Assembly (NCBI GenBank): GCA_020072815.1
Contig: JAIQGE010000007.1
Location: 62,001 to 126,000, forward strand
Source: Terriglobia bacterium
Lineage (GTDB): Bacteria > Acidobacteriota > Terriglobia > Terriglobales > Acidobacteriaceae
DNA: 64,000 bases
Reading direction: 5' to 3'
Every line of letters starts with the position of its first letter. Within the stretch, counting starts at the first letter, position 1. Under the pieces are notes generated by a model. That model ran no database searches and was not told the origin of the DNA. It saw only the letters and a list, made by a program, of their open reading frames with translations. Shown one piece after another: positions 5,406-8,980 of the stretch. The position numbers were made by a program, and so were the translations under genes.

Positions 5406-6356
5406 CTACTTGCGCGCGGTGATGGCCTTGCGAATCGCCGCTTCCGGCGCTTGGTCGTCGTAATGGACGTCGCGGCCGTCAAGAGCAAGGCCCAGCTTCT
5501 TCCAAAGCTCGTCAAGGTCCACCGGGGAAGGCTTGTCGCGCAGCTCCGCATACAGCTCCTGCAGAACTTTGGTTCCGGTGGCTTTGTCGCCGATGGCCAG
5601 GGCTTTCTCTAAGTCCCAGTCCTGGCTGATCACGCCCCCGTGGTTGCGGATGGCGCGCAAGGCGTCCTGCAGGCCTTTGCGGTTGTGGGTGCGCTCGCGG
5701 ATGCGCACGTCGGCCAGCAGGCAGAACATGGCGCCGCCCCAGTACGTGCGTCCCCAGGTTGGGGTGTTGTCCAGGCCGTGGTCGCCATATTGCGGCTGGC
5801 CTTTGGGCATGTCGCGAATGAACTGCCGCCAGACTTCGTCCACGGGAAGACCGCCGGCTTGCGCGCGGGCCACCGGCTCCACGTAAGTGGAGATGCCTTC
5901 TTCAATCCAGTGATGGTTGTCCCCCATGGAAGGAAATGCCAGATGGACCATCTCGTGGGTAAGCGTCCAGTCATCTTTCAGTGCGTCGAGACTGGTGTCT
6001 CGTCCCACGCTGATGAGGATCAGTCCGCCGTCTTTAGCGTAGGTAACGCCGCGATGGACGCCGGAGCGGTCGTCGGTGCGGACGCGCAGGGTCAGGTGCG
6101 GCACAGGGAACCGGCCGTAGTACGTCGAAACCGTGCGCGCTGCCGTCTTGATCCAGGCGAGAATATCATCGCGGGCGATGCTGAGCTGCTCGTCCGGCAG
6201 CGTGACCTCAATTTTCCCGCTCGGAACCGCCAGGATGAGTAGTTGTGCGTCTGATTTCTGACCGGCCGTTCCTCCGCTGAGGCCGACCAGCGTCAGAATA
6301 GGGAACAGCAATACTCTTAGCTTTCGCGGACGAGAGAATGCGGCAAGGGATGTCAC
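5406..6356 (-). CDS. Exported gluzincin-type metallopeptidase (peptidase MA-like)
   Basis: The coding region is clear from the HExxH motif HEMVH at residue 134 with the downstream WIEEGIST (Glu at 152-153). This is the zinc-ligand pattern of gluzincins such as M1/M61 and peptidase MA-like proteins. The GTG at 6356 was taken as start because upstream codons overlap the DoxX gene in another frame. From there the product begins with SRPRKLRVLLFPILTLVGLSGGTAGQ, a signal peptide. No ATG exists before the motif. The protein is about 316 residues and probably periplasmic. It follows DoxX by 25 bp and is probably the last gene of the RiPP-type operon, so a role in processing or degrading exported peptides is possible but not shown. 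Confidence 0.8.
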   Translation of the reverse strand: MTSLAAFSRPRKLRVLLFPILTLVGLSGGTAGQKSDAQLLILAVPSGKIEVTLPDEQLSIARDDILAWIKTAARTVSTYYGRFPVPHLTLRVRTDDRSGVHRGVTYAKDGGLILISVGRDTSLDALKDDWTLTHEMVHLAFPSMGDNHHWIEEGISTYVEPVARAQAGGLPVDEVWRQFIRDMPKGQPQYGDHGLDNTPTWGRTYWGGAMFCLLADVRIRERTHNRKGLQDALRAIRNHGGVISQDWDLEKALAIGDKATGTKVLQELYAELRDKPSPVDLDELWKKLGLALDGRDVHYDDQAPEAAIRKAITARK

Positions 6357-6381
6357 CAGACGCTCATTGTAGCGTGCCGCG

Positions 6382-6861
6382 CTATGCCGCGGCAGTCTGG
6401 CGTTTCTTGAAATAGCGGGCCACCAGGGTGTCCAGCGAAAACATTCCTGGTCCAAAAAACAGCACCAGTAAAGACGCGAACAACAGCGTGTACGGGGCCG
6501 CGGCGTAAAACTTGTCAGTGTCAGAAAAGATGGAGAGCAGGGCTTCGCGATCCGCCGTGATGAAGGCCACCAGCATGTCCCCGGCAAGCAGCAGGGAAAT
6601 CAGGCGAGATCCCAAACCGAGGGCCAGCAGAATGCCGCCGCCGAATTCCAGCACGGCGACGAAATGCGCGTTGAGTGATGGCGCGGGAATCCCCAGGCTG
6701 ATGAAGAAGTCCACGAACTTTGGCATGTCGTGGAGGTGGGCCCACCCGGACTGCCAAAATTGCCATCCCCAAAACAGGCGGACCAACAGAAGAAAGGGCG
6801 ATTGGCAGCCGTCAGCAATCTTCAGAAACCACGCGTAGGCGACTTCAGCTTTCTTGATCAT
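6382..6861 (-). CDS. DoxX-family membrane protein
   Basis: This 159-residue protein starts at the ATG at 6861 (MIKKAEVAYAWFLKIADG). It has four predicted membrane helices, including LLLVRLFWGWQFWQSGWAHL, FVAVLEFGGGILLALGLGSRLISLLLAGDML and AAAPYTLLFASLLVLFFGPG. The order of helices and the FWGWQFWQSG and EFGGGILL motifs are typical of DoxX. In bufferin/Hvf and gig operons a DoxX protein is the usual membrane partner of the MNIO-DUF2063 pair. Here it directly follows the DUF2063 gene (50 bp), supporting one operon. Its biochemical role is unknown. Confidence 0.9.
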   Translation of the reverse strand: MIKKAEVAYAWFLKIADGCQSPFLLLVRLFWGWQFWQSGWAHLHDMPKFVDFFISLGIPAPSLNAHFVAVLEFGGGILLALGLGSRLISLLLAGDMLVAFITADREALLSIFSDTDKFYAAAPYTLLFASLLVLFFGPGMFSLDTLVARYFKKRQTAAA

Positions 6862-6911
6862 TGGCTGGGGCGTTCTCCGTTCGTCCTTAGTCTTGAGTCT
6901 TGGGAAAGTCC

Positions 6912-7720
6912 TTAGTCTTGGGGAGCGTGGCAGAACCAGCCCAGCGACGACCAGTTGGCAAACCAGCCGTGCAGCTGTCCGGTCACGTGCTCCACTTTTT
7001 GATTGCTCCAATTCACGGAGACTTCAATGGCTTCGCCCAGAGTCTTGCCTTGTCGCAGCGCGCCCAGCAGGGCGAATGCCTCCGGCTCTAGACGTTTGAA
7101 GTAAACCACGTTCTCTTGCCGATGGACCGCCAGATAGATCTGCTTGGCGCGAGGCAGGGCCGCGCGGTGGCCTCGCTTGCGCGGCACGGATATGCCAGGT
7201 CCAGCAGCCGCAGATAGGGCTGAAGGTGGAAGCGCGGGTCTTCGCCCAGATTGCCCAGGTCTTCCTGCTTCAGCGCAGGCAGCTCGGCGGCGTCGTAGAC
7301 TTCGATATCGGCCCACTCCAGCCGCACCATGTCCAGGGCCAGGCGCTCGTGCTTGGGAGTGAATTCCGGATGGGCGCGCAGCCAGGTTTCGAGGCGCTCG
7401 CCCAGGTTGCGCAGGGAGAAAGACTCCGACGGCAGTTCCGTCAGGTACGCGAGCAGCACTTGGTCGAATTTCTTCTGCCCGATGACCGCCCTCAGGCCGG
7501 GAAAATCGTCCGCCAGCGACGACAGGATGCGGAACCAGTAGACGCGGTTGTAGATTTCCAGGCGCTCCACCGAAGTCAGACGGTCATTGGGCTTGATGAT
7601 GGCCTCAGCGATTTCGCGCGAAGAGCGCCCGTCGAGCATGGTAGGGCGCATGCGTTCGTCATCGGTCAGCGGCTGCCGCACTACGTCAAACACCGCGCTC
7701 TGGAGTTGTTCTAAATTCAT
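6912..7720 (-). pseudogene. DUF2063 (HvfC/BufC-like) RiPP partner protein, frameshifted
   Basis: Two adjoining frames together encode one DUF2063 protein. The first (from ATG 7720, after GGCGGGG) has MNLEQLQSAVFDVV, RLTSVERLEIYNRVYWFRILSSLADDFPGL and LDMVRLEWADIEVYDA, running to LLDLAYP near 7190. The second frame resumes with AKQIYLAVHRQENVVYFKRLEPEAFALLGALRQG and ends at 6912. The switch falls in a GC-rich stretch at about 7145-7190. A GTG at 7768 overlapping the upstream stop (GTGA) is an alternative start. DUF2063 proteins bind the MNIO enzyme and present the precursor. Either the gene is broken, or a single-base assembly error or programmed shift is present. The downstream part is well conserved in sequence, which favours an error or recent mutation. 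Confidence 0.75.
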
Positions 7721-7764
7721 AACCCCGCCAGGTTCATTCGCGCCGCCGGACTGATGACGCGCCC

Positions 7765-8613
7765 TCACGATGCCACCGCTGCCTTGTCCGGAATAAAGCG
7801 TTTGGCCTTGAGCGCTTCCTTGTGGACTTCTTCAAAGGAAGGAATCTCATCGTCCCACTCCAGCAGCGTCGCCGTGGGGCCAACCCGCTCAATGGCTTTG
7901 GCGTAGAGCTCCCAGACCGGATCAATCACCGGGTGGTCATGCGTGTCCAGAATGTATTTTTCGTACTTGGAGTGGCCGGCGATGTGGATCTGGGCCACGC
8001 GGTCGGCGGAAACGCTGGTGAGATAATCCAAAGGATTGAAATTGTGGTTGCGCGAAGAGACGTAAATATTGTTTACGTCCAGCAGGATGCCGCAGTCGGC
8101 GTCTTCGACGACTTCATTCAAAAATTCCCATTCGGTCATCTGCGAGACGTGATATTCGGCGTAGCTGCTCACGTTCTCCACGCATATGGGGACTTCGAGG
8201 AAGTCGCGGGCCTCGCGGATCTTCTGCGCCGTCCGCTTGGCGGCTTCGAAGGTGTAGGGCATCGGGAGCAGGTCGTGGGAGTAACGTCCGTCCACGCTGC
8301 CCCAGCAGAGATGGTCGGTGAGCCAGGGGGTCTTGGTGCGCTTGACCAAGGTTTTGAGGCGGCGCAGGTGTTCGCGGTTCAGGGGCTCCGCCGAACCAAA
8401 ATACATGGAGACGCCGTGCTGCACCACGCGATAACGTTCCAGGATCTGGTCCAGCGTGTGCAGCGGGCGGCCGCCATCCACCATGAAGTTTTCTGAGATG
8501 ATTTCGAACCAGTCCACCACCGGCTTCTTCTCGAAGATGTGGCGGTAGTGGGGGATGCGGAGGCCGATGCCCACGCCGTAGTCGGTGTGGCCGTTGAAGC
8601 GATTAGCAGGCAT
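7765..8613 (-). CDS. MNIO-family (DUF692) iron-dependent RiPP-modifying oxidase
   Basis: This 282-residue TIM-barrel protein belongs to the DUF692/MNIO family (multinuclear non-heme iron-dependent oxidative enzymes, e.g. HvfB/BufB and MbnB). Visible family marks are GVGIGLRIPHYRHI, DWFEIISENFM, GVSMYFG, DHLCWGSVDG, VENVSSY, DVNNIYVSSRNH, QIHIAGH and LLEWDDEIPSF. The His, Asp and Glu metal ligands are present in these segments. Known members oxidise Cys residues of ribosomal peptides, often to copper-binding heterocycles. It lies 85 bp after the Cys-rich precursor gene and overlaps or adjoins the DUF2063 gene, the standard order. The start is the ATG at 8613, with a weak ribosome binding site. 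This would lower its expression relative to the precursor. Confidence 0.93.
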   Translation of the reverse strand: MPANRFNGHTDYGVGIGLRIPHYRHIFEKKPVVDWFEIISENFMVDGGRPLHTLDQILERYRVVQHGVSMYFGSAEPLNREHLRRLKTLVKRTKTPWLTDHLCWGSVDGRYSHDLLPMPYTFEAAKRTAQKIREARDFLEVPICVENVSSYAEYHVSQMTEWEFLNEVVEDADCGILLDVNNIYVSSRNHNFNPLDYLTSVSADRVAQIHIAGHSKYEKYILDTHDHPVIDPVWELYAKAIERVGPTATLLEWDDEIPSFEEVHKEALKAKRFIPDKAAVAS

Positions 8614-8638
8614 AAGTCAGGAATGAATGAGTCCGTTT

Positions 8639-8679
8639 AAAAAATTCAGAGGGCCAGGGGGCTTTCCCATCTGGCCCTC
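8639..8679 (-). terminator. Rho-independent-like attenuator between precursor and MNIO gene
   Basis: A perfect 9-bp stem (GAGGGCCAG at 8649-8657 with its complement at 8671-8679) encloses a 13-base loop. In the minus-strand direction it is followed by TGAA and six T (A run at 8639-8644). It stands directly after the precursor stop and before the MNIO gene. It would limit readthrough, giving more precursor than enzyme. Confidence 0.75.
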
Positions 8680-8698
8680 CGAGAGAGTGAGAGACCCG

Positions 8699-8980
8699 TT
8701 ACTTTTTCTTGGCTTCTTTCATTGGCTTGCCGTCGGTGCGGCATTCGCCCTTGCCTTTGCAGTCATTCTTGCCCTTGGTTTCCCCGCAGCCGCCTTTGCC
8801 TTTGCAGGAGTTCTTTCCTTTGCAGGAGTGTTTGTCAACCTTCTCTTTGGTGGCTTTCTTGCCGGAGTCGGCGGCCTTGGGCTTGTCGTCGCTGGTCTTT
8901 GCAGCAGCGGCGAGGCTTGTGCCCGCAACGAACCCAGTCAGTGCAGCGCCAACCAGCAGTGCGCGAATCGATTTCGTCAT
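8699..8980 (-). CDS. Cys-rich exported RiPP precursor, HvfA/bufferin-like
   Basis: This 93-residue peptide starts with the ATG at 8980, AAGGAG lying about 11 bases upstream. It begins with a signal peptide (MTKSIRALLVGAALTGFVAGTSLAAA) and a Lys/Asp-rich linker. Next comes a Lys/Gly region with five Cys spaced C-x5-C-x5-C-x8-C-x5-C in CKGKNS, CKGKGG and CKGKGE units, with a Lys-rich tail. This is the layout of low-complexity HvfA-type precursors modified by MNIO enzymes. The described HvfA cores use EGKCG-like motifs, while here the nearest are GKGGCG and GKGECR, so it is a variant. It is the first gene of the operon with MNIO, DUF2063 and DoxX. A copper-related role is inferred from the family, not from this sequence. 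Confidence 0.8.
   Translation of the reverse strand: MTKSIRALLVGAALTGFVAGTSLAAAAKTSDDKPKAADSGKKATKEKVDKHSCKGKNSCKGKGGCGETKGKNDCKGKGECRTDGKPMKEAKKK

Follow-up and report, generated by a model that had tools for sequence, protein, structure and literature searches.

A Buf2-type bufferin operon of Acidobacteriota with a frame-disrupted partner gene and a peptidase that co-occurs with bufB

Main finding

The window, a stretch of 64,000 nucleotides from a genome of the Acidobacteriaceae, carries an operon of a known bacterial kind, directing the production of a modified metal-binding peptide, in its Acidobacteriota version. The operon, its family placement, the residue signature of its maturase, the co-occurrence of a peptidase gene with bufB and a frame disruption in the partner gene bufC can be read from sequence. 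As a single explanation, we consider it fairly probable that a Buf2-type operon is combined here with a peptidase tied to its pathway and with a lesion of the partner gene that impairs modification in this genome.

Layout and conservation of the operon

The genes for the precursor, the MNIO maturase, the DUF2063 partner and DoxX, and that of an HExxH protein predicted to be exported, all lie on the minus strand, running from 8980 down to 5406. The main features are the following.

8699..8980, minus strand: precursor (BufA2-like), 93 aa, with signal peptide, Lys-rich spacer, Cys core and short tail (NF050166, 25.7 bits)
8741..8824, minus strand: core C53-C80 of the precursor, CKGKNSCKGKGGCGETKGKNDCKGKGEC, with five Cys, the fourth of the usual six being absent
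7765..8613, minus strand: MNIO maturase (BufB), 282 aa (NF050167, 346 bits, cut-off 310; PF05114, 357 bits)
7849..7854, minus strand: D254-D255 of the MNIO, aligned to the proposed catalytic base and to the Asp typical of Cys-Lys maturases
7088..7720, minus strand: N-terminal open frame of bufC with DUF2063 intact, 210 aa, ATG at 7720 (PF09836, 53.5 bits)
7173..7192, minus strand: net 82-nt deletion in bufC with loss of frame; 20 nt remain between the two blocks
6912..7172, minus strand: C-terminal part of bufC with NGO1945_C (RRE-type), not in the frame of the N-terminal part
6382..6861, minus strand: DoxX/HvfX-like membrane protein, 159 aa (PF07681, 70.8 bits; NF050144, 55.7 bits, cut-off 80)
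5406..6356, minus strand: gluzincin-type metallopeptidase, predicted to be exported, 316 aa, GTG start (HExxH and fold match)
5943..5957, minus strand: HEMVH (H134-E135-x-x-H138), zinc-binding and catalytic motif of the peptidase; H134, E135 and H138 are invariant in 34 homologues
5898..5900, minus strand: E153 of the peptidase (in WIEEG), probable third zinc ligand, invariant in 34 homologues

A preliminary description of this DNA had called a bufferin/Hvf-type operon. This call is borne out by gene order and strand, with the MNIO scoring above its NCBIfam cut-off and DUF2063 and DoxX above their Pfam cut-offs. The bufferin-type operon is found at high identity in dozens of loci of Acidobacteriota and Verrucomicrobiota and is therefore not a chance arrangement, and bufABC-doxX-peptidase is contiguous in four genomes of the same genus. 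The genome of the window has one MNIO of the BufB-type family and a single gene each of the DUF2063 and BufA2-like types; a search for another DUF2063 or BufA2 gene in it found none. A scan for promoters and terminators upstream of the operon found nothing, and comparison of the MNIO with plasmids gave distant matches only, all below 60% identity.

Compared with the described Buf2 system (BufA2B2C2, Buf_6/12Cys; NF050166, NF050167), the operon shares a signal-peptide precursor with Cys-Lys units, a BufB-type MNIO, a DUF2063-RRE partner, DoxX and an identical gene order. It differs in that precursors of the window's genus have five Cys instead of six, the window precursor scores below the BufA2 cut-off, an extra peptidase is present, and the partner is frame-disrupted in the window's genome. 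The operon would accordingly be classed as a Buf2-type (Cys-Lys captophorin) RiPP operon, in which DoxX would be the usual accessory of a bufferin operon.

The precursor and its cysteine core

The preliminary description had reported a precursor with five Cys in CKGK units and no EGKCG motif. The five Cys and the lack of EGKCG stand, but CKGK begins at only three of the Cys (C53, C59 and C74), with GET after C65 and RTD after C80. The precursor survey comprised 109 loci read beside the MNIO, the window's included, mostly from Acidobacteriota and some from Verrucomicrobiota; as a few genomes entered twice, the distinct sequences number 102. C-x-G-x-N-x-C-x-G-x-G occurs in 107 of them. The preliminary description had named precursors with EGKCG motifs at this locus in close relatives as an observation that would speak against it; they were searched for, and neither EGKCG nor GKCG nor even KC occurs in any of the 109. 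CKGKNxCKGxGGC is thus the core normally found in Buf2-type ("Cys-Lys") precursors, which form one of three large described groups (PMC12452194; PMC13097082); among captophorin precursors, the Cys-Lys group takes in BufA2 (PMC13097082). The view that the CKGK core is divergent has to be given up, as CKGK is the norm of its branch, and divergence of the core was ruled out as a novelty by the 109 loci and these two papers.

Published Buf2 precursors have six Cys in 90% of cases and twelve in the remainder (PMC12452194). In the survey, six Cys were counted at 70 loci, four at 19 and five at 11. Five Cys are found in the window and in loci of the same genus, where the fourth Cys is lost (CGETKGKNDC versus CKSSDNGCKGKNSC). 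The window precursor matches the BufA2 model NF050166 with an E-value of 1e-5, its 25.7 bits lying well under the cut-off of 60; 17 of 18 aligned precursors match this model at E up to 0.01. Because it has five Cys rather than six or twelve, the window precursor is named BufA2-like, a name that stops short of strict Buf2 membership.

The EGKCG oxazolins and fontiphorin (HvfABCD, FonABC) resemble the present system in that an MNIO and a DUF2063 partner act on a repeated Cys motif. However, Lys precedes Cys in their motif and follows it in operons of the window type, and the EGKCG repeats of HvfA-type oxazolins are foreign to the surveyed precursors.

Some variants were seen in the survey. Of the 19 four-Cys loci, most have Gly in place of the third Cys (CKGQGGGKHPGKN); this subgroup includes L007, L014, L019, L022, L026, L029, L042 and others. 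Eight-Cys precursors at L034:2767-2994 and L092:4596-4886 have additional Cys on one side or the other of the usual core. At L096:3683-5001, 1022 bp separate the precursor from the MNIO, compared to the usual 60-150 bp.

The maturase and the expected chemistry

In Pfam, the window MNIO belongs to MbnB_TglH_ChrH. Its residues 252-255 read E-W-D-D, as in the large majority of MNIO loci, versus E-R-D-F in 3BWW. The site of FonB-Phe250 is thereby occupied by Asp (D255, in EWDDEIP) in the window and by Phe in 3BWW. Cys-Lys MNIOs have been described to carry Asp at the site where EGKCG-type MNIOs have Phe (PMC13097082), and in this residue, too, the window MNIO differs from the maturases of EGKCG oxazolins and fontiphorin. 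The earlier suggestion that a core other than EGKCG points to a new heterocycle or metal preference finds no support, since both the core and the Asp of the MNIO match the described Cys-Lys group. Given the Cys-Lys papers and this Asp, the core type indicates a maturase specificity that is different but has already been described, and not a new heterocycle.

In intact relatives, the precursor would be exported by Sec and its core Cys would be modified by the MNIO, most likely to 5-thiooxazoles. The modified product would bind copper in the periplasm. Both the modification and the metal are predicted from papers on relatives (PMC12452194; PMC13097082).

The partner gene bufC

In intact relatives, the DUF2063-RRE partner would present the precursor. 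A point overlooked in the preliminary description is that bufC of the window is not one open frame: the C-terminal NGO1945_C part lies in another frame than DUF2063. In relatives both parts are found in a single protein, and PME type 1 proteins in the literature are DUF2063-RRE chimaeras of full length (PMC12452194). The spacer between the two blocks measures 20 nt in the window, compared to 102 nt in three relatives of the same genus and 108 nt in a fourth; it is a multiple of 3 at all other loci, except for one relative with N bases. A PDB sequence search with the intact partner protein as query gave nothing meaningful.

The two parts of bufC also differ in their rate of change. In pairwise comparisons with the window, the C-terminal part has a pN/pS of 0.24-0.36, versus 0.06-0.09 for pairs of relatives; for the N-terminal part the two ranges are close (0.17-0.25 versus 0.14-0.20). 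The precursor (about 0.25) and the MNIO (about 0.1) of the window are still constrained. All these ratios are rough because synonymous sites are near saturation. Spacer lengths and pN/pS fit a frame disruption that is probably real and perhaps recent.

An assembly or sequencing error appears quite unlikely. An 81-nt in-frame deletion combined with one base error would give the same picture; however, the assembly of 32 contigs has a completeness of 100% and a contamination of 0.14%, and only the C-terminal part evolves faster, which suggests real relaxation. It is also unlikely, to a slightly lesser degree, that the operon is fully working here, with the bufC pieces made separately or joined by frameshifting into a split partner protein. 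Such a reading would agree with the constraint on precursor and MNIO, with a pN/pS below 1 in the C-terminal part, and with the finding that both frames are open through the overlap, a GTG being present in the second frame at the junction (7173-7192). Against it stand the raised C-terminal ratios in the window comparisons and the single bufC frame in every relative without N bases. With a real disruption as the preferred reading, the partner gene is damaged and precursor modification is therefore probably impaired in the window's genome. No other DUF2063 gene is present, and the strain may have lost the ability to modify its precursor.

The exported peptidase

The preliminary description had placed an exported gluzincin 25 bp after DoxX. 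This was confirmed: the GTG start at 6356 lies exactly 25 bp past the DoxX stop and the HExxH motif is present. By inspection, the N-termini of homologues look like export signals. A Pfam search with the window peptidase gave no match, PF05299 (M61) included, while 21 of 34 homologues match PF05299 weakly (best E 6e-4). Sequence searches of the PDB gave nothing with the single sequence and nothing meaningful with a profile, and therefore a fold search was used. The structure model (pLDDT 91, pTM 0.85) had 115 Foldseek matches in the PDB at E up to 0.001, with 7xyo (M61) at E 3.8e-9 and M61 and M1 (6a8z) as top folds. TM-scores near 0.5 and 17% identity to the M61/M1 matches make the peptidase a distant, shortened relative of these families. 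According to the model, it would have an M61/M1-like gluzincin fold (clan MA), with HExxH, a downstream Glu and a thermolysin-like fold. It shares the HExxH gluzincin fold with the M61 glycyl aminopeptidase and M1 aminopeptidases, but is only 316 aa long and lacks a Pfam match to M61 or M1.

At L035:3564-4556, L038:1209-2177 and L052:2608-3570, the peptidase genes are divergent from the bufferin operon and the encoded N-termini are Tat-like. Their RR motif suggests a different export route.

Co-occurrence of the peptidase with bufB

Among 300 genomes of the window's family, bufB (scored as BufB over the cut-off) was found in 105, the peptidase in 70, both in 63 and the peptidase alone in seven. 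The peptidase is thus present in 63 of 105 bufB-positive and 7 of 195 bufB-negative genomes (odds ratio 40, Fisher P 2e-28, kinship being ignored). The added peptidase of the preliminary description is supported by these figures far beyond the single locus. In four of the seven genomes with the peptidase alone, a broken assembly seems to be the reason: MNIO fragments are present in G104 and G167, the peptidase gene of G211 has bufC and doxX next to it, and doxX sits at the end of a contig in G171. At the genus level, all 21 genera with the peptidase have bufB, compared to 28 of 79 genera overall. An unrelated, patchily distributed hydrogenase served as control and gave odds ratios of 1.7 with bufB and 1.3 with the peptidase; its hits were cut at E <1e-90, as with looser thresholds nearly every genome has a member of this protein family. 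A further sample was drawn from the phylum, with the best six candidates scored per genome. Nine of its genomes, belonging to five other families, lie outside the window's family and have a strong peptidase, and BufB is present in all nine.

Linkage is less strict. Peptidase and MNIO lie within 8 kb of each other in 19 genomes, the window's included, and apart or on other contigs in 45 of the 64 genomes that have both. Among the 80 loci retrieved, a same-strand peptidase gene follows downstream in 13, Verrucomicrobiota MAGs among them. The neighbours of ten unlinked copies include no shared gene, except between closely related genomes, and tblastn found no extra precursor beside unlinked copies. 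As 42 of the 105 bufB-positive genomes are without the peptidase, and it is unlinked in most, it is not essential to the pathway.

What the peptidase may do

From its predicted export, its conserved active site and its dependence on bufB, the peptidase seems to act on exported bufferin. Across Acidobacteriota, this M61/M1-like enzyme would be linked in function to the bufferin pathway. Most likely it trims exported bufferin, at the spacer ahead of the core, or turns it over, the substrate being deduced from these associations. A rather doubtful alternative is that it does not act on bufferin, but serves the envelope or nutrient use and is co-selected with bufferins in the same soils, for instance as a metal-stress quality-control protease. 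The many unlinked copies, their unshared neighbours and the bufB-positive genomes that do without the peptidase would be in line with this. Against co-selection stand the odds ratio of 40, compared to 1.7 for the patchy control gene, the complete nesting of genera, linkage also in Verrucomicrobiota MAGs and an invariant active site.

Within action on bufferin, degradation and recycling of the metal-loaded peptide instead of maturation seems improbable as the specific role. Predicted export and an accessory, not universal distribution are as expected of a turnover step; the sequence holds nothing that separates trimming from turnover. The wider proposal, that this is a dedicated bufferin peptidase, and as such the first proteolytic step, in maturation or turnover, of the thiooxazole metallophore (captophorin) class, conserved through Acidobacteriota, shared with Verrucomicrobiota and acting in trans when unlinked, is put forward tentatively, as somewhat less than an even prospect. 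In a study of a close system, no protease was encoded near the cluster (PMC12538549), and further conserved genes at such clusters were reported in extremely low proportions only (PMC12452194). No peptidase reported for the bufferin RiPP class was found in the open-licence literature, and as far as this literature goes, a clade-wide accessory peptidase is new.

The naturally split bufC offers a handle on whether modification requires the RRE-type domain, and the bufB-dependent peptidase is a concrete, testable candidate for cutting of the precursor after modification.
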